From Nakamurella multipartita DSM 44233 (GTDB lineage Bacteria; Actinomycetota; Actinomycetes; Mycobacteriales; Nakamurellaceae): a DNA stretch of 64,000 nt. A model generated the notes under the pieces. The model ran no database searches. It had not been told where the DNA came from and was given only the letters and a program-made list of their open reading frames with translations. Position numbers and translations under genes: made by a program. The stretch's first letter is position 1; each line of letters begins with the position of its first letter. Where the stretch lies: assembly GCF_000024365.1 (NCBI RefSeq), contig NC_013235.1, positions 3,720,001-3,784,000 of the forward strand. Reading direction: 5' to 3'. Shown here piece by piece: positions 45,544 through 62,832 of the stretch.

Positions 45544-46550
45544 CCAGCCCGGTCGGCCAGCGGCGCCCCGCCGGCGCCTCGACCCAGCTCCGGCTGGTCT
45601 CCCAGGTGGCCCGGCTCTACCACGGCCGGCACCTGCGCCAGCGGGAGATCGCCGAGCGGTTGCACATGTCGCAGGCCAGGGTCTCCCGCCTGCTGGCGAT
45701 GGCCCAGGACGAGGGCATCGTGCGCACCGTGGTCGCGGTGCCCGAGGGCCTGTACCCCGAACTGGAGACCGCCGTCGAGCTGGCCTACGGGGTGGCCGAG
45801 GTGCACGTGGTCGAGGTGACCGAGGACAAGGCGATCCCGTACGAGCTGGGATCGGTGGCCGCCCAGTACTTCTCGGACTCACCGCTGGACGGCCGGGTGA
45901 TCGGCTTCACCTCCTGGTCGAGCACGCTGCGGGTGATGGCGCGCGAGCTGGCCACCGGCCGCGGGGTCCGCGGCCGCACCGTGGTCGAGATGCTCGGCGA
46001 TCTGGGCTCTCCCGATCTGCAGCACGACGCCGCCCGGGCCACCCAACGGCTCTCCGCCGCGCTGGGCGCCGACCCGGTGTACCTGCGCACGCCCGGGGTC
46101 GTCCCCGACGCGGCCCGGCGCGCGGCCGTGCTGCACGACCCGTACGTGGCCCGCACCATCGAGCTGCTGGGCCGGTTGGACGTGGCCTTCGTCGGGGTCG
46201 GCCCGGCCGACACCCACGGCCCGCTGCGCGCGGGCGACAACTTCTTCAGCGCCGACCAGCTGCGCGCGGTGCGGGCGGCCGGCGCGGCCGGCCAGCTGCT
46301 CCAGCGGTTCGTGGACGCGGACGGCCGGGCGGTGCGGACCGACCTGGACGAGCTCGTCGTGGGCATCACCCTGCCCCAGCTGCGGGCCGCCGGCCGGCGC
46401 ATCGTGGTGGCCGGTGGGGCCAGCAAGCACGCCGCCCTGGCCGCCTGCCTGCGCGGCGGCTGGATCGACCTGCTGATCACCGATCTGGCCAGCGCCCGGC
46501 ACCTGGCGGCCACCGCCGGCCAGCCTGATGAATCACGATTCGCATACTGA
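45540..46550 (+). CDS. SorC/DeoR-type sugar-responsive transcriptional regulator (2)
   Basis: A 336-residue regulator with helix-turn-helix HLRQREIAERLHMSQARVSRLL (about residues 33-55) and a SorC sugar-binding domain (GFTSWSSTLRVM, PVYLRTPGVVPD, VVAGGASKHAALAACL). It resembles the regulator at 41.4-42.4 kb over its full length, so the pair arose by duplication or the two control two related operons. The stop codon lies inside one arm of an inverted repeat that flanks the next promoter. EryD, the erythritol regulator of Brucella, belongs to the same broad family. Confidence 0.92.
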   Translation: MTSPVGQRRPAGASTQLRLVSQVARLYHGRHLRQREIAERLHMSQARVSRLLAMAQDEGIVRTVVAVPEGLYPELETAVELAYGVAEVHVVEVTEDKAIPYELGSVAAQYFSDSPLDGRVIGFTSWSSTLRVMARELATGRGVRGRTVVEMLGDLGSPDLQHDAARATQRLSAALGADPVYLRTPGVVPDAARRAAVLHDPYVARTIELLGRLDVAFVGVGPADTHGPLRAGDNFFSADQLRAVRAAGAAGQLLQRFVDADGRAVRTDLDELVVGITLPQLRAAGRRIVVAGGASKHAALAACLRGGWIDLLITDLASARHLAATAGQPDESRFAY

Positions 46551-46601: not shown

Positions 46602-46686
46602 AATGTAGATGCGAGCCACGAATTTTTACTCGCAAGGCCGCGAGGCCACTACCCCGACAGTGCGGCAACCGGACAAGGAGGTCTTT

Positions 46687-47940: not shown

Positions 47941-47957
47941 GCCATCCCCGCCGCGGT

Positions 47958-47993
47958 ACCGGGCGCGGCACACGACATGTCGCCGCGCCCGGT
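47958..47993 (+). terminator. stem-loop after epoxide hydrolase
   Basis: A 12-base perfect stem (47958-47969 ACCGGGCGCGGC with 47982-47993) and a 12-base loop start 17 bases after the stop codon. No T-run follows. It would separate the epoxide hydrolase transcript from the ABC operon, which has its own TTGACA-like box at 48065. Confidence 0.6.
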
Positions 47994-48164
47994 CCACCGG
48001 CGGCCCGCCACGAGTGCGGCCGCCGGGCCTGATGCGCATCGCCGCATCCTGTCCTGCCTGACGTCTTGACACCCCCTCCCCATCCCCCTGCCGGGGGACC
48101 CGCCCGCTGGCGCGCCCGCATCCGCCCCAGCACGGTTCCGCCGGCGCGCACAGAAGGTAGTCAC

Positions 48165-49298
48165 ATGATCAGAAAGCGCAAGACCAAGGTCCTGGCCGCC
48201 TTGGTCGCCGCCGCCGCCATCGCGCTGAGCGGCTGCACCTCCACCGCCGCCGGCGGTGGGTCCGGCAGCCAGGAGGCGATCGACCCGAACAACCTGGTTC
48301 TGGTCGCCTCGGTCATCAACACCACCAACCCCTACATGGCCTCGATGATCGAGGGCGCCCAGGCGCTGGGCAAGAAGCTCGGCGTCGAGGTCCAGATCGT
48401 CGACTCCGCCGGCAGCAGCCAGACCGAGATCTCCAAGATCCAGGCCATTCTCGCCCAGGGCAAGAAGGTCGCGCTGATGGTGAACACGGTCGCCAGCTCG
48501 GACGCCCCGACCATCGTCGATGCGGTCAAGCAGGCCGGCGGCTACGTGGTGGTCTGGTGGAACAAGCCGGACAACCTCGAGCCGTGGGACGTCGGCAACA
48601 ACTTCGTCGCCTTCCAGAAGTACTCCGGCGTCGAGAGCGGGGAGTGCACGGGCAAGGCGTTGGCCGAAAGTCTCGGCGGCAAGGGCAATGTCATCGGTCT
48701 GGCGGGCGTCGAGGACAGCACCACCTCGCAGACCCGGGTGGCCGGCTTCAAGGAGGCCCTCAAGGCCTACCCGGACATCAAGCTGCTGGACGTGCAGTCG
48801 GCCAACTGGGATCCGCAGCAGGGACTCTCGGTCACCCAGAGCCTGCTGACCAAGTACCCGGACCAGGTCGACGGCATCTGGGCGGCGGACGACGCCATGA
48901 TCATCGGCGCCACCAACGCGGCCAAGAACGCCGGCCAGTACAACGACATCAAGTTCGTCTCGGACGGGCTGTACCCGCCGGTGGTGGACATGATGAAGGA
49001 GCCGAACTCCCCGGTCGTGGGTGAGACCTTCCACCGCGGCTTCATGGCCTCCTCCATCGGCCTGTACACCGCCTACCTGGCTGCCACCGGGAAGATCGAC
49101 CCGTCGACGCTGCCGCAGGAGAAGCGGGACAGCCTGTTCAAGCTGCAGTGCGTCGGCCCGAACGATTTCGAGCAGTACACCAAGTGGGACAACGACGTCG
49201 ACGGCTGGGTGAGCCAGCTGGTGGACGGCGGCGACCCGTGGAACGTGCAGCCCACCCCGCTGGTCGGCCAGGGCCCGGAGCAGCTGCCCGCCGGCTGA
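48165..49298 (+). CDS. sugar ABC transporter substrate-binding lipoprotein
   Basis: A 377-residue lipoprotein with signal peptide KRKTKVLAALVAAAAIALSG and lipobox LSGC, then a type I (RbsB-like) periplasmic-binding fold: VLVASVINTTNPYMASMIEG, LAQGKKVALMVNTVA, GVEDSTTSQTRVAGFKEAL, DGIWAADDAMIIGA. Two aromatic-rich stretches (VVVWWNKPDNLEPWD and DNDVDGWVSQLVDGGDPW) could stack on a sugar ring. ATG 48165 follows AGAAGG. It is the first gene of the importer and is longer than typical pentose-binding proteins by a C-terminal extension. Confidence 0.92.
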   Translation: MIRKRKTKVLAALVAAAAIALSGCTSTAAGGGSGSQEAIDPNNLVLVASVINTTNPYMASMIEGAQALGKKLGVEVQIVDSAGSSQTEISKIQAILAQGKKVALMVNTVASSDAPTIVDAVKQAGGYVVVWWNKPDNLEPWDVGNNFVAFQKYSGVESGECTGKALAESLGGKGNVIGLAGVEDSTTSQTRVAGFKEALKAYPDIKLLDVQSANWDPQQGLSVTQSLLTKYPDQVDGIWAADDAMIIGATNAAKNAGQYNDIKFVSDGLYPPVVDMMKEPNSPVVGETFHRGFMASSIGLYTAYLAATGKIDPSTLPQEKRDSLFKLQCVGPNDFEQYTKWDNDVDGWVSQLVDGGDPWNVQPTPLVGQGPEQLPAG

Positions 49299-49447
49299 CG
49301 CACGGCCCCGCTTTCCCGCCCGTCGGTCTCGCGCCCAGGTCTGACCCAGGCCACGCGCGCAGGCGTCCGGCTGCGGGCCGGTGATGCACTCACCGGCCCG
49401 CGGCCGGGCCGAACACCGCTGACCTGTCAACAGATTCGGAGAGTTCC

Positions 49448-50479
49448 GTGGCGAACCCGGTCACCCAACAGCCGCCCGGCAGCAGCCTGGGCACCCCTTC
49501 GCCGGCCGCGACCAGACACCGCCGGTTCGAGCTACGCAGCCTGGGCGAGGTCGGCGCCCTGGTCGTCCTGATCGTCGTGTTCGCCGCGCTGAACCCCAGC
49601 ACGTTCCTGACTATCGACAACGTCCGCACGATCCTGGATCAGTCGGCGACCCCGCTGATCGTCGGCGTCGGCGCCACCCTGGTCATCCTGATGGGATCGA
49701 TCGACCTGTCGGTGGAAGGCCTGATGGGGGCCGGCGGCATGGCCTTCATCCTGGCCACCGAGAACAGCCGCGGCTCCACCGATCTGGGCGCCGCCGCGTT
49801 CGTGATCGGCATCCTGGTCGGCGCGCTGCTGGGCATGCTGGCCGGCCTGATCCACACCCGGCTCAAGGTGCCCACGTTCATCGTGACCATCGGTTTCTGG
49901 TTCATCGGGCTGGGCATCGCCACCGTGCTCTTCGGCACCGACAGCATCCCGCTGCTGCCCGACGGCGGCCTCAAGACCTGGCCCAACACCGTCTTCCTGG
50001 GCCTGCCGTTCTCGTTCTGGCTCGCGGGGCTGATCGTCGCGCTCGGCTGGGTGATCACCCGCTACACCAAGTTGGGCCGGTTCACCTACGCCATCGGCAA
50101 CAACGAGGAAGTCGCCCGCAGCAACGGGGTCTCGGTGAGCCGGATCAAGGTGTTCGTGTTCGCCTTCGCCGGTGCCTGCAGCGGCCTGGCCGGCATCCTG
50201 GCCACCCTGCGGCTGGGCGCCGGCTCCCCCACCGTCGGCGGCGGCATCCTGTTCGTCACCGTGGCCGCGGTCGTCATCGGCGGCACCTCGCTGTCCGGCG
50301 GCAAGGGCGGCGTCCTGCGCACCATGCTCGGCGTGATGATCCTGACCGTGCTCAACAACGGGCTGATCCTGAGCGGGGTCAGCTCCAGCATCCAGTCCGG
50401 CGTCTCCGGCGCCATCCTGATCGTGGCCATCATCGTGGCGGCCTGGCCGCTGCGCAGTCGTCTGAGGATCACGAAATGA
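49448..50479 (+). CDS. sugar ABC transporter permease (RbsC-like) 1
   Basis: A 343-residue BPD_transp_2 permease with eight to ten helices. Marker regions are TIDNVRTILDQSATPLIVGVG, the conserved GSIDLSVEG, VARSNGVSVSRIKVFVFAFAG and GGTSLSGGKGGVLRTMLG. The GTG start has GGAGAG upstream. It overlaps the ATPase gene by four bases and, with the second permease, forms the membrane channel. Confidence 0.92.
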   Translation: MANPVTQQPPGSSLGTPSPAATRHRRFELRSLGEVGALVVLIVVFAALNPSTFLTIDNVRTILDQSATPLIVGVGATLVILMGSIDLSVEGLMGAGGMAFILATENSRGSTDLGAAAFVIGILVGALLGMLAGLIHTRLKVPTFIVTIGFWFIGLGIATVLFGTDSIPLLPDGGLKTWPNTVFLGLPFSFWLAGLIVALGWVITRYTKLGRFTYAIGNNEEVARSNGVSVSRIKVFVFAFAGACSGLAGILATLRLGAGSPTVGGGILFVTVAAVVIGGTSLSGGKGGVLRTMLGVMILTVLNNGLILSGVSSSIQSGVSGAILIVAIIVAAWPLRSRLRITK

Positions 50480-52023
50480 CCAAGGCCGTCTCGCGGACCG
50501 ACCCCGCCCCGGCGGGCACCCCCGCCCTCAAGCTCACCGGTATCACCAAGACCTTCGGGTCGGTGACCGCCGTGAAGAACGTCTCGCTGGAGATCCCCCG
50601 CAACCAGGTGATCGGCCTGATCGGGGAGAACGGCGCCGGCAAGTCCACCCTGCTCAAGATCCTGTCCGGGCTGCACGAGCCGGACGCCGGGGTGATGGAG
50701 GTGCACGGCGCGGCGGTGAAGTTCCGCCGCCCGCAGGACGCGGTCGCCGCCGGCTTCGGGGTGGTGCACCAGGAGCAGTCGTTGCTGACCAACCTCTCGG
50801 TCGCCGAGAACATCGCGATGAACGCCCTGTCCTCCAAGGACAATGCCACCCGCGGCGGCTGGTACCGGTGGGGCCAGCTGAACAAGGAGGCCGAAAAGAT
50901 CCTGGCCAAGGTCGGCGCCACGGTCGACCCGCGGGCCATCATCGGGGATCTGTCGTTCGTCGACCGGCAGATGGTGGAGATCGCCCGGGCCCTGCGGGTG
51001 GACGAGATGACCCACACCGCCCCGATCGTCATCCTCGACGAGCCGACCTCGGTGCTCGAGCGCAACGAGACCGCCATCCTGGAGCGGGAGATCGCCGAGC
51101 TCAAGCATGTCGGCTCGGTCATCTTCGTCTCGCACCGGCTGGACGAGGTGCGCCGGATCTGTGACCGCATCATCGTCATGCGCAGCGGCGAGATCGTCGC
51201 CGACCGCGCGACCGAGGGCGTCACCGAGGACGAGCTGTTCCAGCTGATGATCGGACACGCGGCCAAGGCCCGCAAACACGAGGTGCAGAACCGGCAGGGC
51301 GGTGAACCGCTGCTCGAGGTCTCCGGGCTGAGCGCCAAGGGGCAGTTCAAGGACGTGTCCTTCGCGGTGCCGCCCGGCCATTGCCTGGCCATCGTCGGCA
51401 CCATCGGCTCCGGCCGGGAAGAGTTGGTCCGGGCGTTGTTCGGCGCCGAGCCGTTCGATGCCGGCACCATCACCTACCAGGGCAGCCGCCTGCAGTCCTG
51501 GTCCGCGGCCCGGGCCACCCGGGCCGGCATCGGCTACGTGCCGGCCGAGCGCAAGACCGAGGGCATGGTCGGCGGGTTCAACGGGCCGGAGAACATGGCC
51601 ATCGCCCGCACCGGTACCCGCAAGCTGTTCGTCAACCCCTGGCGCGAGCGCAAGGACGGCGCGCAGTGGTTCGAGACCATGGACGTGCGCCCGCGTGACG
51701 TCAAGCTGCACCTGAGCCGGTTCTCCGGCGGCAACCAGCAGAAGGTCGTCATGGCCAAGTGGCTCAAGTCGGAAACGCTCAAGCTGCTGATCCTGGACCA
51801 TCCGCTGCGCGGCCTGGACCCGGGCGCCGCGGAGACGGTCAACGAGAAGATCCGCGAGGCCCGGGATTCGGGGACCGCGATCGTGCTGCTGGCCGACACG
51901 CTGGAGGAAGCCCTGGACATGGGCGACACCGTCCTGGTGATGCGTGACGGCGAGATCACCGCGCACTTCGACCTGACCGTCGACACCCCCACGACCCTCG
52001 ACCTGCTCGAAAAGATGGTGTGA
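50476..52023 (+). CDS. sugar ABC transporter double ATPase (RbsA-like)
   Basis: A 515-residue ATPase with two nucleotide-binding domains. The first has Walker A GENGAGKST and Walker B IVILDEPTSVL. The second has the usual degenerate Walker A GTIGSGREE and the signature FSGGNQQKV. Its Walker B reads LLILDHPLRGLD, so the catalytic Glu is replaced by His442; most relatives have LDEPTRG. The second site is therefore likely inactive and only the first hydrolyses ATP. It lies between two permease genes. Confidence 0.94.
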   Translation: MTKAVSRTDPAPAGTPALKLTGITKTFGSVTAVKNVSLEIPRNQVIGLIGENGAGKSTLLKILSGLHEPDAGVMEVHGAAVKFRRPQDAVAAGFGVVHQEQSLLTNLSVAENIAMNALSSKDNATRGGWYRWGQLNKEAEKILAKVGATVDPRAIIGDLSFVDRQMVEIARALRVDEMTHTAPIVILDEPTSVLERNETAILEREIAELKHVGSVIFVSHRLDEVRRICDRIIVMRSGEIVADRATEGVTEDELFQLMIGHAAKARKHEVQNRQGGEPLLEVSGLSAKGQFKDVSFAVPPGHCLAIVGTIGSGREELVRALFGAEPFDAGTITYQGSRLQSWSAARATRAGIGYVPAERKTEGMVGGFNGPENMAIARTGTRKLFVNPWRERKDGAQWFETMDVRPRDVKLHLSRFSGGNQQKVVMAKWLKSETLKLLILDHPLRGLDPGAAETVNEKIREARDSGTAIVLLADTLEEALDMGDTVLVMRDGEITAHFDLTVDTPTTLDLLEKMV

Positions 52024-52024
52024 C

Positions 52025-53062
52025 ATGTCCGATCGAACCGCGACCGATCAATCCGCCCGCCCCGAGAACTCCGTCCGCAGCGTCGATGTGGCTCCGGCGC
52101 CGGCCGCCGACCGCCGACGCTGGCGGGTCATCGACCTGTGGGCCACCGTCGGCCCGCTGACCGTGTTCGTCATCCTGTTCGCGCTGGTGGCGATCCTGCG
52201 GCCGGCCTTCCTCGGCGGCGGCGGCCTGTCCATCGTGGCCACCCAGTGCACCGCGATCCTGCTGGTCGCCCTGGGCCAGTGCCTGGTGCTCAACGTGGGC
52301 TCGATCGACCTGTCCAACGCGGCGATCGCGCTGTTCTCGGCGATCCTGCTGGCCAAGACGATCGGCCCGGCCGGGGCCGGCGGGCTGGTCCTGGTGATCG
52401 TGCTCGGCGCGGCCATCGGTGCGCTCAACGGGTTCCTGGTCTCGTTCTTCCAGGTGCCCAGCTTCGCCCTGACCCTGGGCACGCTGGGCATCCTGCAGAC
52501 CGCGTCGCTGATCATCAGCGACAAGACCACCGTCTACGCGGCCAAGAGCGCCCTGCTCACCCCGATGTTCGGCTCGGCGATCGGCGGGCTGGTCACCGCC
52601 TTCTGGACCGCGGTGATCATCGCCATCGTGCTCTGGGCGATGCTGCGTTTCACCACCCTGGGCCAGAGCATGACGGCGGTCGGGCTGAACGAGACCGGCG
52701 CCCTGTTCTCGGGCATCCGGACCCGGGCCACCAAGATCATCGCCTTCATGTTCTCCGGACTGCTGGCCTCCATCGCCGGCGTCATGATCATCGCCCAGGC
52801 GGGATCGGCGTCCAGCACCGGCCTGGGCAGCGACCTGCTGTTGCCCGGGATCACCGCGGCGATCGTGGGCGGCACGGCGATCACCGGCGGCATCACCAAT
52901 CCCATCAACGTCGTCTTCGGCGCCCTGACGGTCACCCTGATTCCCGTCGGCACCGCGGCGATCGGCATCCCGTCCGAGGCGCAGAGCCTGGTCTACGGCC
53001 TGGTGATCATCATCGCCGTGGCCCTGACCATCAGCCGCAAGCGCGTCGGCGTCGTGAAGTAA
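52025..53062 (+). CDS. sugar ABC transporter permease (RbsC-like) 2
   Basis: A 345-residue BPD_transp_2 permease with about nine helices after a hydrophilic N-terminus of 35 residues. Conserved regions are GQCLVLNVGSIDLSNAAIAL, VPSFALTLGTLGIL, GIRTRATKIIAFMFSG and GGTAITGGITNPINVVFG. It starts one base after the ATPase stop. Having two different permease genes implies a heterodimeric channel, as in some AI-2, erythritol or pentose importers. Confidence 0.92.
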   Translation: MSDRTATDQSARPENSVRSVDVAPAPAADRRRWRVIDLWATVGPLTVFVILFALVAILRPAFLGGGGLSIVATQCTAILLVALGQCLVLNVGSIDLSNAAIALFSAILLAKTIGPAGAGGLVLVIVLGAAIGALNGFLVSFFQVPSFALTLGTLGILQTASLIISDKTTVYAAKSALLTPMFGSAIGGLVTAFWTAVIIAIVLWAMLRFTTLGQSMTAVGLNETGALFSGIRTRATKIIAFMFSGLLASIAGVMIIAQAGSASSTGLGSDLLLPGITAAIVGGTAITGGITNPINVVFGALTVTLIPVGTAAIGIPSEAQSLVYGLVIIIAVALTISRKRVGVVK

Positions 53063-53113
53063 GTCCCGAACGATCCCCCACTTCCTCATTTCGACAGTCC
53101 AAGGAGCACAAGC

Positions 53114-54577
53114 ATGGCCGTCCTCGAAGCACTGGAACCCCAGGAAGTACTGGGCTACTTCGAGAAACTGTGCAGTTACCCGCGCGGCTCGGAGAACGAG
53201 AAGCAGGTGGCCGACTGGGTGATCGCGTTCGCCCGGGAACGCGGCCTGGAGGCGTTCCAGGACGAGCGGCACTGCGTCGTGGTGCGCAAGCCCGGCCAGG
53301 GCGGCCTGGAGAACGCGCCCGGCCTGATCCTGCACGGTCACCTGGACATGGTCTGCGCCAAGCAGGAAGGCGTGAAGATCGACTTCCTGAACGAGCCGAT
53401 CACCCTCGTCGTCGACGGTGACTTCATCAAGGCCGACGGCACGTCGCTGGGCGCCGACAACGGCATCGGCTGCTCCTACATCCTGGCCCTGCTGGCCTCC
53501 ACCGACATCCCGCACCCCCCGCTGGAAGCGGTGATGACCGCGATGGAGGAAAAGGGCAAGGTCGGGGCCGGGCACTTCGACACCTCGGTGCTCACCGGCA
53601 CCCGGATGATCGACTTCAACTGGATCACCGACCACGAGATCCTGGCCGGCTGCAGCGGTGACGTCACCTTCCTGGTCGACGTGCCGGGCGAGTTCGAGCC
53701 GGTCCCCGCCGAATTGTCGGTCACCCGGTCGCTGCGGGTGCGGGGCCTGATGGGCGGGCACTGCGAGTTCGACATCCACCTGGAGCGGGCCAACGCGATC
53801 CTGGTGCTGGCCCGGGTGCTCAACGCCGTGCTGGATGCGTACGACGTGCGGATCAGCGGGCTGACCGGCGGCACCCAGAACAGTGCCATTCCGGCCGACG
53901 CCGAGGTGGTGCTGTCGGTCCGCCCGCAGGACGTCGCCGGCATCGAGGCCCTGGTCGCCGACCTGGCGCAGACCGTGCACGAGGAGTACCGGCGCGCCGG
54001 CGACACCATCCGGCTCGAGGTCGACGAGGCCCCGGCGCCGCAGCGGGCGTTCTCCAAGGCGGCCGGCGAGCGGTTCGCCCGGCTCACCGCGCTGATCCCC
54101 AACGGCGTGCTGAGCTGGAGCCTGCTGACCCGCGGCGTGGTCGAGAGCTCCAACAACCTGGGCACCCTGCGCCCGACCGAGGACGGGGTGCGGCTGGCCT
54201 CCACCATCACCGCCCAGGTCACCTCCCGCAAGCACGAGATCCTGGACCGGGTCAGGGCGCTCGCCGCGCTGGCCGGGGGCGGCGTCACCGTGCAGCAGTA
54301 CGGGCTGGACGCCCCGGAGTTCCCCTACCAGGAGAACTCCGTCCTGCTCAAGACCGCCGCCGAGGCCTACCGCGACGTCATCGGTGCGGAGCCGGACATC
54401 CACGTGTCGCAGTGCAGCCTCGAGTTGGGCATGTTCAGCCGCAAGATCCCGGGGCTGGAGATCATCTCGATCGGCACCGAGCTGCATGCCCTGCACTCGC
54501 CGCTGGAATCGGTCAACCACACATCGGTGGCCAAGGTGTGGCCCCTGGTCAAGGAGGTCGTCGGCCGGCTCAGCTGA
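53114..54577 (+). CDS. PepD-like aminoacyl-histidine/non-specific dipeptidase (M20)
   Basis: A 487-residue metallo-dipeptidase of the M20 PepD type. Zinc-site motifs are HGHLDMVC (His76, Asp78), GADNGIG (Asp115) and the catalytic-base region TAMEEKGKVGAG (Glu145-Glu146), where relatives have DEE-G. A lid domain with GGHCEFDIHLERANA and a C-terminal GTELHALHSPLESV complete the fold. A peptidase inside a sugar operon is unusual. It may process a peptide-linked or gamma-glutamyl conjugate of the substrate, or simply share the promoter. Confidence 0.9.
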   Translation: MAVLEALEPQEVLGYFEKLCSYPRGSENEKQVADWVIAFARERGLEAFQDERHCVVVRKPGQGGLENAPGLILHGHLDMVCAKQEGVKIDFLNEPITLVVDGDFIKADGTSLGADNGIGCSYILALLASTDIPHPPLEAVMTAMEEKGKVGAGHFDTSVLTGTRMIDFNWITDHEILAGCSGDVTFLVDVPGEFEPVPAELSVTRSLRVRGLMGGHCEFDIHLERANAILVLARVLNAVLDAYDVRISGLTGGTQNSAIPADAEVVLSVRPQDVAGIEALVADLAQTVHEEYRRAGDTIRLEVDEAPAPQRAFSKAAGERFARLTALIPNGVLSWSLLTRGVVESSNNLGTLRPTEDGVRLASTITAQVTSRKHEILDRVRALAALAGGGVTVQQYGLDAPEFPYQENSVLLKTAAEAYRDVIGAEPDIHVSQCSLELGMFSRKIPGLEIISIGTELHALHSPLESVNHTSVAKVWPLVKEVVGRLS

Positions 54578-54633: not shown

Positions 54634-55653
54634 ATGAACCAGAAACTGGATCCCGAGTTCCTGGTGGAGATGCAGCGGCGCATGCTGCGGATCCGCCGGT
54701 TCGACGAGCGGGCGTCGAAAATGGTGAAGCGGGGCGCGATCCCGGGCACCGTGCACACCAGCATCGGCCAGGAGGCGCAGGTCGTGGGCGCGACCATGGC
54801 CCTGGGCGAGCACGACTACATGACCGGCAACCACCGCAGCCACGGCCACCCGATCGGCAAGGGCTCGCCACTGGGCCCGCTGATGGCCGAGCTGGTCGGC
54901 AAGGCCGGCGGCGTCTGCGGCGGCAAGGGCGGTTCGCTGCACCTGGCCGACTTCAACGTCGGCAGCCTGGGCGAGTCCGGCATCGTCGGTAGCTCCATCC
55001 CGATCGCCACCGGCGCCGCGCTGTCGTCGAAGGTGCTGGGCAACGGCAAGGTCTCGCTGGCCTTCTTCGGTGACGGGGCCGCCAACCAGGGCTGCCTGTA
55101 CGAGTCGCTGAACATCGCCGGCGTGTGGAAGCTGCCGGTCATCTTCCTGTGCGAGAACAACCAGTACGCCCTGTCCACCCAGGCCTGGACCGTGACCTCC
55201 GGCGTGATCGCCGACCGGGCCGCCGGTTTCGGCATCCCCGGGGTCCGGGTGGAGAACGGGCAGGACATCATGGCCGTCTACGACGCGGTCAGCACCGCCG
55301 TCGATCGGGCCCGGGCGGGCGAGGGGCCGACCCTGGTCGAGGTCGTCACCTACCGGTACAACGAGCATTCCGAGGGCCTGCGGCTGGCCACCGACTACCG
55401 CAACGCGGACGAGAAGGCGGACTGGCTGGCCCGCGACCCCATCGTCTTGCACCGGCAGTACCTGATCGACAACTGGATCGCCACCACCGAGGAGCTCGAC
55501 CAGCTGGAGGCCGACGTCCTGGCCGAGGTCGAGGACGCGGTGACCTTCACCAACGACAGTCCCTTCCCCGAGCCGTCGATCGCGTTCGCCGATCTGTACA
55601 CCGAACCAATCACCCCGTCCAAGTACCTGGATCCGATCGGAGCACGACCGTGA
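54634..55653 (+). CDS. 2-oxoacid/acetoin dehydrogenase E1 component, alpha subunit
   Basis: A 339-residue thiamine-diphosphate enzyme subunit closest in pattern to acetoin dehydrogenase AcoA. Markers are RRMLRIRRFDERA, GNHRSHGHPIGKG, GGKGGSLHLADF and the ThDP/Mg motif GDGAANQG-(20)-ENN (146-176). It decarboxylates or cleaves a 2-oxo acid or acyloin and passes the acyl group to a lipoyl carrier. It is followed by the beta subunit (GTGA overlap) and a separate lipoyl protein. No E3 gene is seen in the window. Confidence 0.92.
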   Translation: MNQKLDPEFLVEMQRRMLRIRRFDERASKMVKRGAIPGTVHTSIGQEAQVVGATMALGEHDYMTGNHRSHGHPIGKGSPLGPLMAELVGKAGGVCGGKGGSLHLADFNVGSLGESGIVGSSIPIATGAALSSKVLGNGKVSLAFFGDGAANQGCLYESLNIAGVWKLPVIFLCENNQYALSTQAWTVTSGVIADRAAGFGIPGVRVENGQDIMAVYDAVSTAVDRARAGEGPTLVEVVTYRYNEHSEGLRLATDYRNADEKADWLARDPIVLHRQYLIDNWIATTEELDQLEADVLAEVEDAVTFTNDSPFPEPSIAFADLYTEPITPSKYLDPIGARP

Positions 55654-56711
55654 GCGTGATGAGCTACCTGGGCGCGATCGGCGCCGCCCAGCTGGAGGCG
55701 ATGGAGGCCGACGAGCGCGTCGTCATCATCGGCGAGGACGTCGAGGCCAACGTCTACGGCACCACCGGCGGCAAGTCCCGCTCCGACAAGGGCGACTTCC
55801 TGCAGAAGTTCGGCGCCAACCGGATCCGCAACACCCCGATCTCCGAGGAGATCATCGTGGGCGCCGCCGCCGGCGCGGCGATGACCGGGCTGCGCCCGAT
55901 CGTCGACCTGTCCTACTCCAGCTTCATGTACATGGCCATGGACCAGTTCGTGAACCAGGTCGCCAAGAACCGCTACATGTTCGGCGGCCAGGCCTCCATG
56001 CCGGTGGTCTTCCGCTCGGCCATGTTCTACGGCCTGAACACCGGTGCGCACCACAGCGACCGCCCGTACCCGATGTTCATGAACGTGCCCGGCATCAAGA
56101 TCATGGCCCCGGCCTCCCCCGCCGACGCCAAGGGTCTGCTGCGCACCGCGATCGACATGGACGACCCGGTCCTGAGTTTCGAGGCCTGCCTGCTCTGGGG
56201 CCGCAAGGAGGAGGTGCCCGACGAGGAGTACCGCATCCCCTTCGGCGTGGCCCGAACCCTGCGCACCGGCAGCGATGTCACCGTCGTCGCCATCTCCAGC
56301 GCCGTGCCGGAGGCCGAGGCGGCCGCCGACGCGCTGGCCGAGGAGGGTCTGTCGGTCGAGGTGATCGACCCGCGCACGCTGGTGCCGCTGGACATCGACA
56401 CCGTCATCGAGTCCGTCCGCAAGACCGGCCGGCTGGTCGTCGCCGATCCGGCCCACCGCACCTGCTCGGCCGCCGCGGAGATCTCCGCGCTGGTGGTCGA
56501 GGAGGCGTTCGAATCGCTGCAGGCGCCGATCGTCCGGGTCACCACCCCGGACACCCAGATCCCGTTCAGCCCGGCCCTGGAGAAGCAGCTCTACCCCAAC
56601 CGGGCCACCATCACCGAGGCGATTTGCCGGGTGACCGGCGAGCGGGGACCCGTCCCCGCGGCCCCGGATCCGGCCGCCCACAACGGCGCCCGGGTCGGCG
56701 CCCCGCGCTAG
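55650..56711 (+). CDS. 2-oxoacid/acetoin dehydrogenase E1 component, beta subunit
   Basis: A 353-residue transketolase-like subunit that pairs with E1 alpha. Visible are VVIIGEDVEANVYG, the conserved TPISEEIIVGAAAGAAMTGL, EACLLWGRKEEVPDEEY and the C-terminal VVADPAHRTCSAAAEIS. The region SSFMYMAMDQFVNQVAKNRY matches the family's cofactor-contact helix. The GTG start overlaps the alpha stop. The C-terminal 20 residues are low-complexity and dispensable-looking. Confidence 0.92.
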   Translation: MSVMSYLGAIGAAQLEAMEADERVVIIGEDVEANVYGTTGGKSRSDKGDFLQKFGANRIRNTPISEEIIVGAAAGAAMTGLRPIVDLSYSSFMYMAMDQFVNQVAKNRYMFGGQASMPVVFRSAMFYGLNTGAHHSDRPYPMFMNVPGIKIMAPASPADAKGLLRTAIDMDDPVLSFEACLLWGRKEEVPDEEYRIPFGVARTLRTGSDVTVVAISSAVPEAEAAADALAEEGLSVEVIDPRTLVPLDIDTVIESVRKTGRLVVADPAHRTCSAAAEISALVVEEAFESLQAPIVRVTTPDTQIPFSPALEKQLYPNRATITEAICRVTGERGPVPAAPDPAAHNGARVGAPR

Positions 56712-56753: not shown

Positions 56754-56999
56754 ATGGCACGCATTGAGGTCCTGCTTCCCCAGTGGGGCATGGGCATGAG
56801 CGAGGGCACCATCATCGAGTGGCACAAGGCGGTCGGCGACAGCGTCACCGAGGACGAGCCGCTGGCCGAGGTGGAGGCCGAGAAGGTCGAGGAGACCCTG
56901 GAGGCCCCGGCCACCGGCACCCTCACCGAGATCCTGATCCCGGCCGACCAGACGGTCGAGGTGCGCACCGTCGTCGCCATCATCGAAACGACGGACTGA
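56754..56999 (+). CDS. stand-alone lipoyl carrier protein (E2 lipoyl domain)
   Basis: An 81-residue protein that is a complete biotinyl/lipoyl domain and nothing else: VLLPQWGMGMSEGTIIEWHK, then the lipoylated Lys44 in AEVEAEKVEETLEAP, then DQTVEVRTVVAIIETTD. The usual ETDKA motif is EAEKVEE here. The E2 catalytic domain is encoded separately at 61.0-61.7 kb, so E2 is split. The lipoyl protein would shuttle acyl groups between E1 and that domain without a tethered arm. Confidence 0.93.
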   Translation: MARIEVLLPQWGMGMSEGTIIEWHKAVGDSVTEDEPLAEVEAEKVEETLEAPATGTLTEILIPADQTVEVRTVVAIIETTD

Positions 57000-57000: not shown

Positions 57001-58611
57001 ATGTTGGACGCGCTGTCGTCGACCTTCGACGTCGTGGTGATCGGGGCAGGCATCAACGGCGTCGCCATCGCCCGCGACGCCGCCCTGCGCGGCCTGCGCG
57101 TCGTCCTGCTCGAGCAGGACGACATCTGCAGCGGCGTGTCCGCCTGGTCCGGCCGGCTCATCCACGGCGGCCTGCGCTACCTGGAACACCGCGACTTCGC
57201 GCTGGTGCGCGAGTCGCTGCGGGAGCGGGAGCGGCTGTTCGTGCAGGCGCCGCACCTGGTCAAGCCGGTCCGGCTGCTGATGCCGTTCTACGCGCACAAC
57301 CGCCGGCCCGGCTGGATGATCCGTTTCGGCATGATCGCCTACGACGTGCTCTCGTTCGACAAGAAGTCGGCCCGGCACGAGATCCTGTCCGAACCCGAGA
57401 CCCGGCAACGCTTCACCGGGATCGGCACGGACGGCCTGTCCGGCGCGGCGGTCTTCACCGACGGGCAGGTCGAGTACGCCGAGCGGCTCTGCGTGGAGCT
57501 CGCGGTGGCCGCCGCCGGCGACGGCGCGGTCATCCGCACGCACGCCCGGGTGGAGGAGCCCATCGTCGAGCACGGTCGGCTGGTGGGCGTGCGATTCCGG
57601 GACACCGACAGCGGCCAGCTGCAGGAGGTCCGCGGCTCGGTGATCATGAACGTGGCCGGTCCGTGGATCGACCGCATCTTCACCACCGGGGCCGCGGGTC
57701 AGCCGCGACTCAACGGCGGCACCAAGGGCAGCCACCTGGTCGTGGACCCGTTCCCGGGTGCGCCGACCGACGTCGTGTACTACGAGTCCCGGCGGGACGG
57801 CCGGCTGGTCCTGGTGATTCCCTGGATGGGCCGGTACATGTTGGGCACCACCGATATCCGCTTCGATGACGACCCGGATGACGCCCGCTGCGACGCGGAC
57901 GAGATGCAGTACATCCTGGACGAGGTCAACGGCCTGGTGCCGGAGGCGAACCTGACCAAGGACGACGTGCTGTACACGCTGTCCGGGGTGCGGCCGCTGC
58001 CCTACGCCCCGGGCGTGGCCGAGTCCTCGGTCCCCCGCACCCACGTGCTGCACGAGCACGAGGGGACGGTGAACGGGCTGATCACGGTGGTCGGCGGCAA
58101 GCTGACCACGCACCGGCAGTTGGCCCAGGACGCGGTCGATCTGGCCTTCGACAAGCTCGGCCGCCCGGCCCCCAAGTGCGTCACCAAGTACCTGCCCTTC
58201 CCGGGCGCGGTCGGCGACGTCGCGGAGGTGGGCCGGGAGCTGGCCGGCGCCGGGCTCTCGCCGGCGTCGGTGCAGCGGCTGGTCGGCATCTACGGGGGCC
58301 GGGCCCTGGACGTGGCCGCCCTGGCCGCGCAGGACCCCGAACTGCTCGCGGTGGTGCACGAACCGACCGGCGCGATCGGCGCCGAGCTGGTGTTCGCGGT
58401 CCGGGTCGAGTTCGCCCGCACCCTGGCCGATGTGCTGGCCCGGCGCACCCTGCTCGCGTTCGAACCCGGGCACGCCCTGGAATCGGTGGACAAGATCGCC
58501 GCCGTGCTGGGCGATCGGCTCGGCTGGGACGAGGACCGGCGCGAGGCCGAGATCGCCGGCTACAAGCACTGGTTGGACCACCTGGCGGTACCGACTGAGG
58601 AGCCGGCATGA
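57001..58611 (+). CDS. GlpD-like FAD-dependent polyol-phosphate dehydrogenase
   Basis: A 536-residue flavoprotein of the glycerol-3-phosphate dehydrogenase family. The dinucleotide motif is GAGINGVAIARDAA (residues 15-28), with LIHGGLRYLEHRDFALVRE, MNVAGPWIDR and the C-terminal DAO_C domain. The segment before LIHGG reads SGVSAWSGR rather than the usual TSSRSSK, so the substrate pocket may differ. Relatives include EryB for erythritol phosphate. It probably oxidises a polyol phosphate to a ketose phosphate and passes electrons to quinone. It overlaps the next kinase gene (ATGA). Confidence 0.9.
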   Translation: MLDALSSTFDVVVIGAGINGVAIARDAALRGLRVVLLEQDDICSGVSAWSGRLIHGGLRYLEHRDFALVRESLRERERLFVQAPHLVKPVRLLMPFYAHNRRPGWMIRFGMIAYDVLSFDKKSARHEILSEPETRQRFTGIGTDGLSGAAVFTDGQVEYAERLCVELAVAAAGDGAVIRTHARVEEPIVEHGRLVGVRFRDTDSGQLQEVRGSVIMNVAGPWIDRIFTTGAAGQPRLNGGTKGSHLVVDPFPGAPTDVVYYESRRDGRLVLVIPWMGRYMLGTTDIRFDDDPDDARCDADEMQYILDEVNGLVPEANLTKDDVLYTLSGVRPLPYAPGVAESSVPRTHVLHEHEGTVNGLITVVGGKLTTHRQLAQDAVDLAFDKLGRPAPKCVTKYLPFPGAVGDVAEVGRELAGAGLSPASVQRLVGIYGGRALDVAALAAQDPELLAVVHEPTGAIGAELVFAVRVEFARTLADVLARRTLLAFEPGHALESVDKIAAVLGDRLGWDEDRREAEIAGYKHWLDHLAVPTEEPA

Positions 58612-60104
58612 CCAGCTACGTGCTGACCCTGGACGAGGGCACCTCCAGCGCGCGGGCCGTGCTGATCGATCCCGATGGCCAGATCGTCAGCGAGGCCCGG
58701 CGGCCGGTGGTGCCGGTGTTCCCGCACCCCGGCTGGGTCGAGCTGGACCCGGTCCGGGTCTGGCAGTCCCAGCGGGACGCCATGCTGGAGGCCATGTCCC
58801 GGGTCGGCGCCACCGCCCGGGACCTGGTCGCGATCGGCATCACGACCTCCCGGGAGACGGTCGTGCTCTGGGACCGGCGCACCGGTGAGCCGATCCACCG
58901 GGCCATTTCCTGGATGTCGAACCAGACCGAGCCGATCGTCACCCGCTGGCGGGAAGCCGGCTGGGACGACGACATCCGGGCCCGGACCGGCGTCTACAAC
59001 AACCCGTTCTTCAGCGCCTCCAAGCTCACCTGGCTGCTGGAGAACGTGCCTGGCGCCCGCGAGCGCGCCGAGCGCGGGGAGCTGGCCGCCGGCACCCTGG
59101 ACACCTGGTTGCTCTGGCAGCTGACCGCCGGCCGCTCGCACCGCACCGACCACAGCGAGGCGTCCCGGACCGGGCTGTTCAACCTGCACACCCTGGCCTG
59201 GGACGAGCAGCTGTGCGCCCGGGCCGGCGTGCCGCTGGCCCTGCTGCCGGAGGCGGTGCCGTCCGACGCCGCGTTCGGCGACGCCGACCCCACTGTGTTC
59301 GGTGACCTGGCCGCCGGCTCCCGGGGCGTGCCGGTGACCGCGATCCTGGGCGACCAGCAGGCCGGCATGTTCGGCCAGGCCTGCTTCGAGCCCGGCTCGG
59401 CCAAGAACACCTACGGCACGGCCGGGGTCCTCACCGTGAACAGCGGCGCGGACCCGATGCTGGTGGATGGCCAGATCGCCAGCGTGGCCTGGACGGTGGC
59501 CGGCCGCACCGCCTTCGAGGTCGAGGGCACGGTCTTCTCCAGCGGCCAGACCCTGGGCTGGCTGCGCGACCGGATGAAGATGTTCAGCACCGGGAACGAC
59601 ATCGAGCGGCTGGCCCGGCTGGCCGACGACAACGGCGGCGTCTACTTCGTGCCCGCCTTCAACGGTCTCGGCTCGCCCTACTGGGATCGCGGGGCCACCG
59701 CGACGATCTCCGGGCTCACCCTGGAATCCGGGGCCGAGCACGTGGTCCGGGCCGCCGTCGAGGCCATGGCCTACCAGACCCGGGACAACATCGACCGGCT
59801 CGGCGCGGCCGGCCTGGCCGTGGCCTCGCTCAAGGTGGACGGCGGCGCGGCCGGCAACGACCTGCTCTGCCAGTTCCAGGCCGACCTGTGCGGCATTCCC
59901 GTCCTGCGGGCCAGCCAGCGCGAGATGACCGCACTGGGCGTCGGTTTCCTGGCCGGTATCGGCGTCGGGGTGTGGAAGTCGCCCGACGACCTGGCCGCCG
60001 GCTGGACCGCGGACCTCACGTTCGAACCCGGCCCGGACGCCGCCCGCGCCGACCACCTGTACGAGGGCTGGCGCCGCGCGGTCGCGGCCGCCCGCGCCGC
60101 CTGA
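58608..60104 (+). CDS. glycerol-kinase-like FGGY polyol kinase
   Basis: A 498-residue FGGY kinase near glycerol kinase: DEGTSSARA (9-17), SRETVVLWD with Arg82-Glu83, ILGDQQAGMFGQ with Asp249, YGTAGVLTVNSG and DGGAAGNDLLCQFQAD. Two polyol-contact features differ from glycerol kinase: the usual DPYFS is NPFFS (Tyr to Phe134), and the QDRRT stretch is MSNQT (103-107). A substrate other than glycerol is therefore likely. It is coupled to the FAD dehydrogenase upstream and is the intact counterpart of the truncated kinase at 43.3 kb. Confidence 0.9.
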   Translation: MTSYVLTLDEGTSSARAVLIDPDGQIVSEARRPVVPVFPHPGWVELDPVRVWQSQRDAMLEAMSRVGATARDLVAIGITTSRETVVLWDRRTGEPIHRAISWMSNQTEPIVTRWREAGWDDDIRARTGVYNNPFFSASKLTWLLENVPGARERAERGELAAGTLDTWLLWQLTAGRSHRTDHSEASRTGLFNLHTLAWDEQLCARAGVPLALLPEAVPSDAAFGDADPTVFGDLAAGSRGVPVTAILGDQQAGMFGQACFEPGSAKNTYGTAGVLTVNSGADPMLVDGQIASVAWTVAGRTAFEVEGTVFSSGQTLGWLRDRMKMFSTGNDIERLARLADDNGGVYFVPAFNGLGSPYWDRGATATISGLTLESGAEHVVRAAVEAMAYQTRDNIDRLGAAGLAVASLKVDGGAAGNDLLCQFQADLCGIPVLRASQREMTALGVGFLAGIGVGVWKSPDDLAAGWTADLTFEPGPDAARADHLYEGWRRAVAAARAA

Positions 60105-60168
60105 TCAAGCTTGCCGATTCACCCACCTTGCTGTCCCCGCCCGTCGCTTCGCAGATGAGGAGTTCGCC

Positions 60169-61014
60169 ATGCCCTACGTCGATCCGGCCAAGCTGGTCGC
60201 CGACGCCCGCTCCGGCGGTTACGCCGTCGGTGCCTTCAACATGCACAACGTGGAGACCACCCAGGCCCTGGTGCTGGCCGCCGAGGAGGCCAAGGCACCG
60301 GTCTTCCTGCAGGTCGGCCGGGCCATCGTGCCGCACATGGGCCTGCGAGCGGCCTACGAGATGACCAAGCGGGTCGCCGAGGAGTCCGGCGCCGACGTCG
60401 TCATCCACCTGGACCACGGCCCCGAGGACGAGGTGCTGGAAGCGATCAAGCTCGGCTTCGGCTCCGTCATGTACGACGGCGCGCACCTGCCGTTCGAGGA
60501 GAACATCCGCAGCACCCGCCGGCTGGTCGAGATCGCCCACGCCTTCGGCCTTCCCGTGGAGGCCGAGCTGGGCAAGATCCCCGACGCCGACGAGGACGTC
60601 GACTGGTCCGCCTACTACACCGATGTCGCCGAGGCCGAGCGCTTCGTCAAGGAGACCGGCGTGGACTGGCTGGCCATCTCGGTGGGCATCATGCACGGCG
60701 TGCCGATGACCACGCCGGCCCCGCTGGACATCGATCGGATCGCCCAGATCCGGGACGCCACCGGGATCCCGCTGGTCCTGCACGGCGCCTCCGGCGTGCC
60801 CGAGGACGAGATCCGGGCCGCGGTGGAGAACGGCGTGCACAAGTTCAACGCCGACACCGACCTGCGGCACGCCTTCCGCTCCGGCATCGAGGCCGTCTGG
60901 TCGCAGGGCGACCGGCAGCTGGAGACCGCGATGGCCGAGGGTCGCAAGCGGATGGTCGCCGCCACCATCGGCAAGATGGAGCTCTACGGCTGCTCCGGCA
61001 AGGCCGGGCTGTGA
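60169..61014 (+). CDS. class II ketose-bisphosphate/phosphate aldolase
   Basis: A 281-residue zinc aldolase of the FbaA/GatY type. Expected residues are present: the LDHG motif (His and Asp), EAELGKI, MHGVP and LHGAS zinc-site histidines, and KFNADTDLR for phosphate. Several positions deviate from standard fructose- and tagatose-bisphosphate aldolases: GIMHGVPMTT replaces the GTSHGAY type, YDGAHLP the DGSHLP, and GASGVP the GSSGIP. It would cleave a ketose phosphate to DHAP plus an aldehyde. It overlaps the E2 gene by four bases (GTGA). Confidence 0.9.
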   Translation: MPYVDPAKLVADARSGGYAVGAFNMHNVETTQALVLAAEEAKAPVFLQVGRAIVPHMGLRAAYEMTKRVAEESGADVVIHLDHGPEDEVLEAIKLGFGSVMYDGAHLPFEENIRSTRRLVEIAHAFGLPVEAELGKIPDADEDVDWSAYYTDVAEAERFVKETGVDWLAISVGIMHGVPMTTPAPLDIDRIAQIRDATGIPLVLHGASGVPEDEIRAAVENGVHKFNADTDLRHAFRSGIEAVWSQGDRQLETAMAEGRKRMVAATIGKMELYGCSGKAGL

Positions 61015-61709
61015 CCACCACCGCTCCCCCCAGCACGGACGCGCCGGCCGGCAGCACCCAGACCAAGCTCACCGGCATCCGGCGCACCGCCGCCCGCCGG
61101 ATGATCGCCGCCTGGGCCGCCCCGGTGTTCCACCTCACCGTCGAGGTGGACATGAGCAACGCGTTGCGCACCAAGGAGTTCGAGCCCAGCGCCACCGTCA
61201 CCGACGCCCTGCTGGCCGCCTGCGCCACCGCGCTGCGGGCCCATCCGGCGCTCAACGCCCACTACGCCGACGAGGTCGTCACCACCTTCGACGCGGTGCA
61301 CCTGGGGGTGGCCGTGGCCACCGACGCCGGGCTGATGGTGCCGGTGATCCACGGCGCCGACGGCCTGGGCCTGCCCGAGTTGGCGGCCGCCCGCAAGGAC
61401 GTGGTCGCCCGGGCCCGGGCCGGCAAGCTGGCCATGGCCGACGTCAGCGGCGGCACGTTCACCGTGTCCAACCTGGGCATGATGGGCATCGACCGGTTCG
61501 ACGCCATCCTCAACGTGCCGCAGGTGGCCATCCTGGCCGTCGGCAGCACCCGGCAACGGCAGGTCTGGGTCGGCGACACGCAGACCGGCGAACCCGCGTG
61601 GCGGCCGATCGCCGAGTTCACCCTGACCTGCGACCACCGGGCCATCGACGGCGCCACCGGCGCCGCGTTCCTGGCCCGCATCCGGGACGAGGTCCAGGCC
61701 CCCCGCTAG
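61011..61709 (+). CDS. stand-alone E2 dihydrolipoamide acyltransferase catalytic domain
   Basis: A 232-residue protein matching only the C-terminal catalytic domain of E2 acyltransferases: TGIRRTAARRMIAAWAAPVFHL, AVHLGVAVATDAGLMVPVI, FTVSNLGMMGIDRFDAILN and the active-site DHRAIDG (His209 and Asp213). No lipoyl domain or peripheral-subunit-binding domain is present; the former is encoded at 56.8 kb. It would transfer the acyl group from the free lipoyl carrier to CoA. The GTG start is coupled to the aldolase stop. Confidence 0.92.
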   Translation: MTTTAPPSTDAPAGSTQTKLTGIRRTAARRMIAAWAAPVFHLTVEVDMSNALRTKEFEPSATVTDALLAACATALRAHPALNAHYADEVVTTFDAVHLGVAVATDAGLMVPVIHGADGLGLPELAAARKDVVARARAGKLAMADVSGGTFTVSNLGMMGIDRFDAILNVPQVAILAVGSTRQRQVWVGDTQTGEPAWRPIAEFTLTCDHRAIDGATGAAFLARIRDEVQAPR

Positions 61710-61884: not shown

Positions 61885-62832
61885 ATGGCCACCGCGCTGG
61901 ACAAGTACGCCGACGCCGAACCGCACTGGGACTACCCGGTCGTCATCGAATCGCACATCAACGGTGTGCGCAGCAAGGAGATGAACCCGAACACGCCGGT
62001 CGGCTACGACGAGATCGCCGAGGACGCGATCCGGTGCTGGGAGGCCGGGGCCGGCGCGATCCACGCCCACAACACCAGCTTCGACCTGCTGGGCGAGAAC
62101 GCGTTCAAGGACTACATGCGCACGTGGGAGAAGGTGCTGGACAAGCACCCGGACATCACCTGGTATCCGACCACCTGCAACAACCTGCGGCTGATCGGCG
62201 ACGAGCACGGGCTGGAGCACGTGGCCCTGCTCAACGAGCACGCGCACGCCGAGATCGCCTGCGTGGATACCGGTCTGACCCTGTTCGCGACCCACACCGA
62301 CGACGAGGGGTACCTGGTCGGGCCCGAGTTCGGGTTCAACTACGCCCGGGTCGGCCGGCAGTGGCGGATGCTGCGCGAACGCAATGTGCCGATGGTCTAC
62401 GGCGTCTACGAGCCCGGTCACCTGCGGCACGCGATGTACTACGTCAACCAGGGCATGTCCACGCCCGGCTCGATGTGGGACTTCTACCTGATCGGCGACT
62501 ACGGCCTGACCGCCACCGAGCCGATCGGCACCAACGGCATGAAGCCGAGCCTGGAGAGCCTGTACTACTACCTGCACATGATCGAGGAGGCGAAAGTCAA
62601 GCACCCCTGGTACATCTCGATCTGGGGCCAGGGCGCGCTGGACGACACGCACATCCTGCGCCGGGCGATCGAGCTGGGCGGGCACATCAAGACCGGCCTG
62701 GAACTGTTCTACGACCCGGCCCGCAATCCGACCAACCTGGAGCTGCTGCAGCAGGCCCAGGAGATCGCCCGCGAGGTGGGCCGGCCGATCGCCACCCACG
62801 AGCAGGCCCGCGCCCTGTACCAGCTCCGCTGA
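61885..62832 (+). CDS. BKACE (DUF849) beta-keto acid cleavage family protein
   Basis: A 315-residue TIM-barrel enzyme of the BKACE family, whose characterised members react a beta-keto acid with acetyl-CoA. The zinc-binding HxH appears as AIHAHNTSFD (His60, His62), but the family-typical ARD after it is replaced by NTS. Later are YPTTCNNLRL, HGLEHVALLNEH, EPIGTNGMKPSLE and GHIKTGLELFYD. ATG 61885 follows AAGGAGG. It is the last gene of the catabolic operon, with a palindromic element on each side. The substrate is unknown. Confidence 0.88.
   Translation: MATALDKYADAEPHWDYPVVIESHINGVRSKEMNPNTPVGYDEIAEDAIRCWEAGAGAIHAHNTSFDLLGENAFKDYMRTWEKVLDKHPDITWYPTTCNNLRLIGDEHGLEHVALLNEHAHAEIACVDTGLTLFATHTDDEGYLVGPEFGFNYARVGRQWRMLRERNVPMVYGVYEPGHLRHAMYYVNQGMSTPGSMWDFYLIGDYGLTATEPIGTNGMKPSLESLYYYLHMIEEAKVKHPWYISIWGQGALDDTHILRRAIELGGHIKTGLELFYDPARNPTNLELLQQAQEIAREVGRPIATHEQARALYQLR

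Follow-up and report, generated by a model that had tools for sequence, protein, structure and literature searches.

A window of 64,000 nucleotides from Nakamurella multipartita DSM 44233 (contig NC_013235.1, positions 3,720,001 to 3,784,000; the source genome is 6.06 Mb in a single contig) contains three consecutive genes for a GlpD-like FAD dehydrogenase, a GlpK-like kinase and a class II aldolase. These lie in one run of genes, in the order E1-alpha, E1-beta, lipoyl carrier, GlpD-like enzyme, GlpK-like kinase, aldolase, E2 core and BKACE-family protein, such that the trio is threaded among the parts of a thiamine pyrophosphate (TPP)/lipoate dehydrogenase complex with a lipoyl-less E2; the set recurs in Actinobacteria and Alphaproteobacteria. 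The genes are:

54634-55653, + strand: E1-alpha of the TPP/lipoate dehydrogenase complex (family matches; EHSEG loop)
55659-56711, + strand, start approximate: E1-beta (structure-family match, motifs)
56754-56999, + strand: putative free-standing lipoyl carrier of 81 amino acids, containing EAEKVEET (label from sequence and position)
57001-58611, + strand: GlpD-like FAD dehydrogenase of a clade with SAWSGR (NCBIfam and domain scores, motifs, tree)
58608-60104, + strand: GlpK-like FGGY kinase with Val at the position of E. coli Phe270 (family scores, motifs, tree)
60169-61014, + strand: class II aldolase, in a clade of its own (family scores, PDB matches, motifs, tree)
61011-61709, + strand: E2 acyltransferase core without a lipoyl domain of its own, DHRxxDG kept (family matches)
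61885-62832, + strand: BKACE-family accessory protein, found in a subset of relatives (PF05853, 167.3 bits)

A preliminary description of this stretch gave the coordinates, gene order and motif letters of the trio correctly and proposed a substrate other than glycerol. Its three-enzyme account overlooked the Val at Phe270, the lipoyl gene at 56754-56999, the TPP/lipoate operon and an alternative kinase/dehydrogenase pair found in relatives. We dropped the reading limited to three enzymes on the lipoyl gene and the conserved E1 and E2 genes.

Kinase, dehydrogenase and aldolase clades

Judged by family scores, the likely annotations of the trio are glycerol kinase, glycerol-3-phosphate dehydrogenase and ketose-bisphosphate aldolase, and metabolic models of the Actinobacteria and Alphaproteobacteria carrying these genes would be led astray by such labels. 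The kinase scores 544.5 against the NCBIfam equivalog TIGR01311, under its cut-off of 590.35, and 559.4 against the PRK00047 subfamily, over its cut-off of 498. Glycerol kinases have five signature positions, R83, E84, Y135, D245 and F270, the last of which contacts the glycerol carbons (available text of PMC3245297). Counting 25 clade kinases (L120 and L180, whose genomes are already represented by L024 and L125, and the fragment L133 are set aside), the glycerol-site residues R83, E84 and D245 are kept in all 25. The Phe270 position is Val in 25 of 25, compared with 36 Phe and one Ala among 37 other GlpKs. At the Tyr135 position, Phe occurs in 14 of the 25 and Tyr in 11; the window kinase, with Phe135 and Val270, departs from the five-residue signature. 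Where the other GlpKs have QDRRT (Gln first in 37/37, Arg fourth in 36/37), the clade has xSxQ[T/S], with Ser and Gln in all 25 and one member ending in Ser. On the aligned sequences, Val at Phe270 is the strongest kinase change and Tyr-to-Phe a weaker mark. Because Phe270 touches glycerol carbons and the clade has Val, the substitution should widen the kinase pocket.

Quick trees, with support from the Shimodaira-Hasegawa-like approximate likelihood ratio test (SH-aLRT) and no bootstrap, put kinase, dehydrogenase and aldolase in clades of their own; placement inside the standard families, which the preliminary description had named as counting against its proposal, was not obtained. In the kinase tree of 68 rows (25 clade members, three kinases from parallel clusters, 37 other GlpKs and three outgroup sequences), one branch sets the 37 other GlpKs apart (SH-aLRT 98) and another the 25 clade members (SH-aLRT 93). 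The three parallel-cluster kinases likewise have Val and the xSxQ pattern. A search of 25 aldolase-bearing genomes found a clade kinase in 20 (51-61% identity, at least 505 bits), the remaining matches reaching at most 44% identity and 436 bits. Eighteen of these 20 carry a further GlpK homologue (323-436 bits), and the five of the 18 that were inspected have the ordinary signature. Together with the separate clades, these further homologues agree with the non-glycerol role that had been proposed, incomplete as that reading was.

The GlpD-like enzyme has DAO and DAO_C domains and falls under both NCBIfam equivalog cut-offs (336.8 against 360 and 317.6 against 352). All 24 distinct GlpDs of the clade carry SAWSGR, and none of the 13 others compared does. 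The clade retains HGGLRYL, KG[S/T]H, SGVRPL and GKLTT (KGSH and GGKLTT in the window), which we take to be active-site stretches. Its 24 rows form a clade with SH-aLRT 99 in a tree that holds only 10 other GlpDs and has long branches flagged. In 29 genomes, GlpDs at 57-71% identity and at least 630 bits were found in 24; three matches are in between, at 44-47%, and the others reach at most 39%, except for a 59% fragment in G041.

The aldolase belongs to the class II family by its PF01116 score (291.8 bits) and by HLDHG, HG, LVLHG and NxDT. It scores 268.7 against the best bisphosphate-aldolase equivalog, under the cut-off of 343.05, and 236.7 against the broad cbbA subfamily, over the cut-off of 215.6. 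Clade aldolases have HLDHG in 36 of the 36 rows that cover the site and His at 176 and NxDT in 37 of 37, presumably those essential to zinc class II aldolases. GASG occurs in 33 of 37 (three have GISG, one GAWG) and in none of 65 others, which mostly have GGSG or GSSG. DGAH occurs in 20 of 37 (13 DGSH, three DAAH, one DFAH) and also in four of the 65. The Tyr after the HG of the second His is missing from all 37, and also from 28 of the 65. The 37 rows form a clade with SH-aLRT 100. The GlpD and aldolase tree sets exclude the duplicates L146, L152-L155, L180, L175 and L035_6831 and the contig-edge fragment L037_2, and the aldolase set also the duplicates L049 and L002. The best PDB matches, 8q57 and 8q58, named KbaY and ketose-bisphosphate aldolase, share a QxG stretch with the clade. 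As marks of the clades, therefore, three of the motifs singled out in the preliminary description hold (SAWSGR, xSxQ[T/S] and GASG), whereas Tyr-to-Phe and DGAH are variable and the HG without Tyr of GIMHGVPMTT, although constant in the clade, is shared with other aldolases. With Val at Phe270, SAWSGR and GASG as clade markers, better annotation is possible now.

Among the best 80 loci of an aldolase scan of named genomes, 32 are at 63-78% identity and the other 48 at 35-44%; gene prediction around one distant match, a Vibrio aldolase at 39% (L060), gave no useful context. The aldolase clade is rare: a sample of 396 genomes of the phylum yielded it in three (E 1e-90), the window genome among them. 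Elsewhere in the window genome, at 5735502, lies a further class II aldolase whose motif is of the NIDTDTQ type. Both the GlpD and the aldolase of the window are nearest to L029 and L030 (70-78%; L030 is titled Pseudomonadota), compared with 62-67% for genus mates; E1-alpha lacks that pattern (genus mates 79-81%, alphaproteobacterial loci 75-79%). Because GlpD and aldolase are closer to L029 and L030 than to genus mates, the comparison suggests lateral transfer of these two genes.

The conserved complex and two input pairs

E1-alpha, E1-beta, lipoyl and E2 parts are all present in the window operon, the lipoyl part being assigned by sequence only. The nearest families and solved structures of E1 and E2 are those of pyruvate dehydrogenase (PDH) and branched-chain keto acid dehydrogenase (BCKDH). 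At the site of GHSMS in human PDH, E1-alpha has the loop EHSEG, which is found in 30 of 31 E1-alphas of relatives (GHSKS in one). In 29 of the 32 named-genome loci, E1-beta and the aldolase share a strand and are no more than 4 kb apart, and the three loci without that linkage (L034, L056 and L057) are contigs of 4-6 kb. The aldolase gene is directly 3′ of the lipoyl gene in 17 of the 32. In five of the loci (L045, L051, L052, L053 and L055), GlpK/GlpD is on the opposite strand and the aldolase still follows the lipoyl gene. GlpD and GlpK lie between the two in 11 loci, and L058 has there a gene of SorC type together with part of a GlpD. A lipoate-ligase-family gene (family match 34.6 bits against 27) is present in 29 of the 32 loci.

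Relatives have a second input pair, consisting of a xylulokinase-like FGGY kinase, here called FGGY0, and an iron-containing alcohol dehydrogenase (Fe-ADH) related to glycerol-1-phosphate dehydrogenase (G1PDH). The best NCBIfam model for FGGY0 is XylB, with a score under the cut-off. The window retains a remnant of this kinase:

43285-44671, + strand, left edge approximate: FGGY0, xylulokinase-like FGGY kinase with its 5′ end gone (longest open reading frame with a start codon, 43355-44671)

Across 42496-43355, a binding protein is cut short near codon 240 and passes out of frame, at about 43,275, into FGGY0 at about codon 57, the junction being placed by eye; the frame of FGGY0 differs from that of the truncated binding protein, and from about residue 57 onward FGGY0 is convincingly similar, also by eye, to the full-length kinase of L024. 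Importer parts, Fe-ADH and the kinase start of relatives are missing at this deletion scar. The best Fe-ADH match in the window genome, at 39%, lies in a parallel cluster, and a weaker one is at 34%.

Among 29 genomes (a set without the records of L034, L039, L048, L056, L057, L059 and L065), the two pairs occur together in 21. FGGY0/Fe-ADH is found alone in G019, G020, G021 and G025; the titles of all four are alphaproteobacterial and most are metagenome assemblies, such that the absence of GlpK/GlpD may reflect incompleteness. GlpK/GlpD is found alone in the window genome (G000), in which FGGY0 is truncated, and in G009 and G035; neither pair is complete in G041. That either input pair can be absent while the aldolase and E1 stay is our main ground for suggesting that the two supply a shared intermediate, the constancy of the aldolase being partly built in because all the compared genomes were picked via this gene.

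A diverged second set in the window genome (L177, 5577-19001 of G000:C1:3636000-3655000, at 3.641-3.655 Mb) includes GlpK (44%), GlpD (47%), a class II aldolase (31%), Fe-ADH (39%), another FGGY kinase, an E1-family protein of 724 amino acids and an E2-family protein whose start is, by eye, lipoyl-domain-like. Similarly, L178 (G009) and L179 (G035) contain GlpD, an aldolase-family protein, a GlpK-like kinase and E1 proteins of 785 and 688 amino acids, which their length and motifs indicate to be alpha/beta fusions. That the combination recurs in L177, L178 and L179 speaks for a functional tie of the polyol enzymes to E1.

Proposed pathway and alternatives

We propose, at a probability of roughly one half, that the operon breaks down a non-glycerol polyol to dihydroxyacetone phosphate (DHAP) and an aldehyde, with the E1 complex making an acyl-CoA from the other product. 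The observations behind this proposal are the clade separation, the pocket substitutions, the conserved gene set and the lack of either input pair in some genomes; from these we infer the class of substrate, the order of reactions, the ketose-1-phosphate intermediate, DHAP as a product and the compound on which E1 acts. The GlpK-like kinase would phosphorylate a terminal hydroxyl of the polyol, the GlpD-like enzyme would oxidise the neighbouring carbinol to yield a ketose-1-phosphate, and the aldolase would cleave this intermediate to DHAP and an aldehyde. Phosphorylation, oxidation and cleavage had been proposed in this order in the preliminary description, and they agree with the enzyme families and with the residues that the aldolase retains. 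Conversion of the remaining product to an acyl-CoA would then fall to E1-alpha/E1-beta together with the separate lipoyl protein and the E2 core. In relatives, FGGY0/Fe-ADH might feed the same aldolase, perhaps from a stereoisomer of opposite configuration. GlpD-type and G1PDH-type enzymes form DHAP from opposite enantiomers of glycerol phosphate, and we therefore conjecture that the two pairs serve stereoisomers of one polyol.

Which aldehyde is released would depend on the substrate: a four-carbon (C4) compound would give DHAP and formaldehyde, a C5 compound glycolaldehyde and a 5-deoxy C5 compound acetaldehyde. Erythrulose-1-phosphate synthesis, the reverse of C4 cleavage, is described as a side activity of DHAP aldolases (available text of PMC10733421). 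In our judgement, glycolaldehyde and acetaldehyde suit E1 chemistry better than formaldehyde. We put forward more tentatively a specific form of the proposal in which the DHAP aldolase and its dedicated TPP/lipoate complex are one catabolic unit, the aldehyde (or ketose) from polyol cleavage being oxidised on E1 directly to acyl-CoA and the unit being fed by two stereospecific pairs, of sn-glycerol-3-phosphate and sn-glycerol-1-phosphate type.

Several points weigh against the proposed polyol cleavage and E1 step. E1 complexes take 2-oxo acids or acyloins; direct oxidation of an aldehyde is not known to us for any of them, nor is a precedent for such a complex acting on an aldolase product, and the formaldehyde from a C4 polyol would be an awkward substrate. 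Tyr135 is retained by the 11 clade kinases noted above. In six loci of alphaproteobacterial type (L029-L033 and L038), the surroundings of the aldolase yielded no E2 core. In the parallel clusters, the aldolase-family proteins beside E1 (L178 5305 and L179 9915) have NEAE or NEAD at the HLDH site, so that their role need not be aldol cleavage, and the E1 loop in L178 and L179 is GHSRGD, which differs from EHSEG. The proposal also leaves unexplained the neighbouring genes for the DXR-like oxidoreductase DRL, BKACE, the epoxide hydrolase and the peptidase. If E1 does act on the aldolase product, the operon would represent a new way of keeping polyol carbon as acyl-CoA.

An acetoin-dehydrogenase-like complex could instead cleave a 1-deoxyketose (or its phosphate) derived from a 2-C-methyl polyol to acetyl-CoA and an aldose phosphate, with the aldolase on a side branch. 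DRL (PF21135) is encoded beside the operon in the alphaproteobacterial relatives L032 (2282-3604) and L058 (3639-4958) and also in G019 (DRL at C24:28188, Fe-ADH at C24:29209); XylB is the best, if sub-threshold, model for FGGY0, and E. coli XylB accepts 1-deoxyxylulose. We treat a DRL/methylerythritol pathway as a rival only, because a family search of the 29 genomes found DRL in seven, namely six of alphaproteobacterial type and the window's own, while the other actinobacterial genomes, 21 in number, gave no match. Since the window-genome DRL (L176) also lies elsewhere, among sugar-nucleotide-type genes, and this acyloin route gives no reason for the aldolase to stay with E1, we consider it rather doubtful. 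It is less probable still that E1/E2 is an ordinary 2-oxo acid dehydrogenase adjoining an otherwise separate non-glycerol polyol pathway. Although the PDH and BCKDH relationships of E1 and E2 are what such a complex would have, the E1, lipoyl, GlpD, GlpK, aldolase and E2 genes are interleaved, the lipoyl-aldolase junction persists even in the five loci with GlpK/GlpD on the other strand, and the lipoate-ligase-family gene and EHSEG are nearly constant.

That these are glycerol and fructose-bisphosphate enzymes that merely drifted is very unlikely. The kinase does exceed the PRK00047 cut-off, and three of the five glycerol signature residues are kept throughout the clade; drift is, however, hard to reconcile with clade-wide fixed substitutions, separate trees, the further GlpK homologues and the NIDTDTQ-type aldolase elsewhere in the window genome. 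We regard as most improbable a sulfo- or deoxy-sugar pathway in which the aldolase cleaves a ketose-1-phosphate with a non-polyol tail, for although 8q57 and 8q58 have the QxG stretch, the GlpK and GlpD relatives indicate polyol chemistry.

We class the operon as a variant of polyol catabolism outside the glp, ery and acetoin systems. With glycerol GlpK-GlpD it shares enzyme families, phosphorylation followed by FAD-dependent oxidation, and three of five kinase signature residues; it differs in the separate clades, Val at Phe270, xSxQT, SAWSGR and the presence of an aldolase and a TPP/lipoate complex in the same operon. Complexes of the acetoin dehydrogenase and PDH kinds likewise have E1-alpha, E1-beta, lipoyl and E2 parts with DHRxxDG kept, whereas here the lipoyl domain is a small protein of its own, E2 lacks one, the E1 loop is EHSEG and polyol enzymes are interleaved. 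In B. subtilis, araB-araL-araM reportedly brings together an FGGY kinase, a HAD-IIA phosphatase and a glycerol-1-phosphate-dehydrogenase-like Fe-ADH; here such a trio is accompanied by a class II aldolase and E1. Brucella papers are said, by their titles, to tie erythritol use to an ordinary Fba with transaldolase or to a gluconeogenic route.

The erythritol system eryABCD-tpiB resembles the window operon in its FGGY kinase EryA, in the families of EryB and EryD and in its ABC importer. Its core route, eryABC-tpiB, ends in DHAP, which is also the proposed product here; neither a class II aldolase nor an E1 complex is named as part of it in the available text (PMC3599248). None of the genes labelled in the window operon is an isomerase, no dedicated isomerase search having been made. 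Threitol and erythritol use in Mycolicibacterium smegmatis, also actinobacterial C4 polyol catabolism, proceeds via erythrulose and its 4-phosphate to D-erythrose-4-phosphate, and the word aldolase appears nowhere in the main text of that account as available (PMC12780249). A class II aldolase combined with a TPP/lipoate complex is thus described in neither of the two accounts as available. Within the open PMC literature, judged mostly from titles and the starts of abstracts, we recognised no paper describing the operon, which does not prove it unpublished.

Flanking genes

Between the truncated FGGY kinase and the E1 genes lie those for a phosphatase, a regulator, a hydrolase-family protein, an ATP-binding cassette (ABC) importer and a peptidase:

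44668-45543, + strand: HAD-IIA phosphatase (TIGR01460, 122.2 bits against a cut-off of 100.15)
45591-46550, + strand, start uncertain: SorC-type regulator, a recurring neighbour among relatives
46609-47940, + strand: epoxide-hydrolase-family alpha/beta hydrolase of a second module (PF06441, PF00561)
48066-53062, + strand: sugar-type ABC importer, made up of the parts listed next (binding-protein PDB matches; permease and ATPase labels from sequence)
48066-49298, + strand: importer binding protein, matching sugar-binding proteins in PDB
49448-50479 and 52025-53062, + strand: importer permeases (label from sequence)
50476-52023, + strand: importer ATPase (label from sequence)
53114-54577, + strand: PepD-like M20-family peptidase (TIGR01893, 409 bits against a cut-off of 343.75)

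The SorC label of the regulator is our assumption. PDB searches with the two binding proteins returned sugar-binding relatives only and pinned down no ligand. In many actinobacterial relatives, the HAD-IIA phosphatase gene comes after FGGY0. The epoxide-hydrolase-family protein has 75-80% identity in the relatives that have it and, with the sugar importer and the M20 peptidase (46609-54577), makes up a second conserved module. BKACE recurs at 77-85% identity by the operons of L046, L050, L054, L059 and L065 and, in L178, by a parallel cluster.

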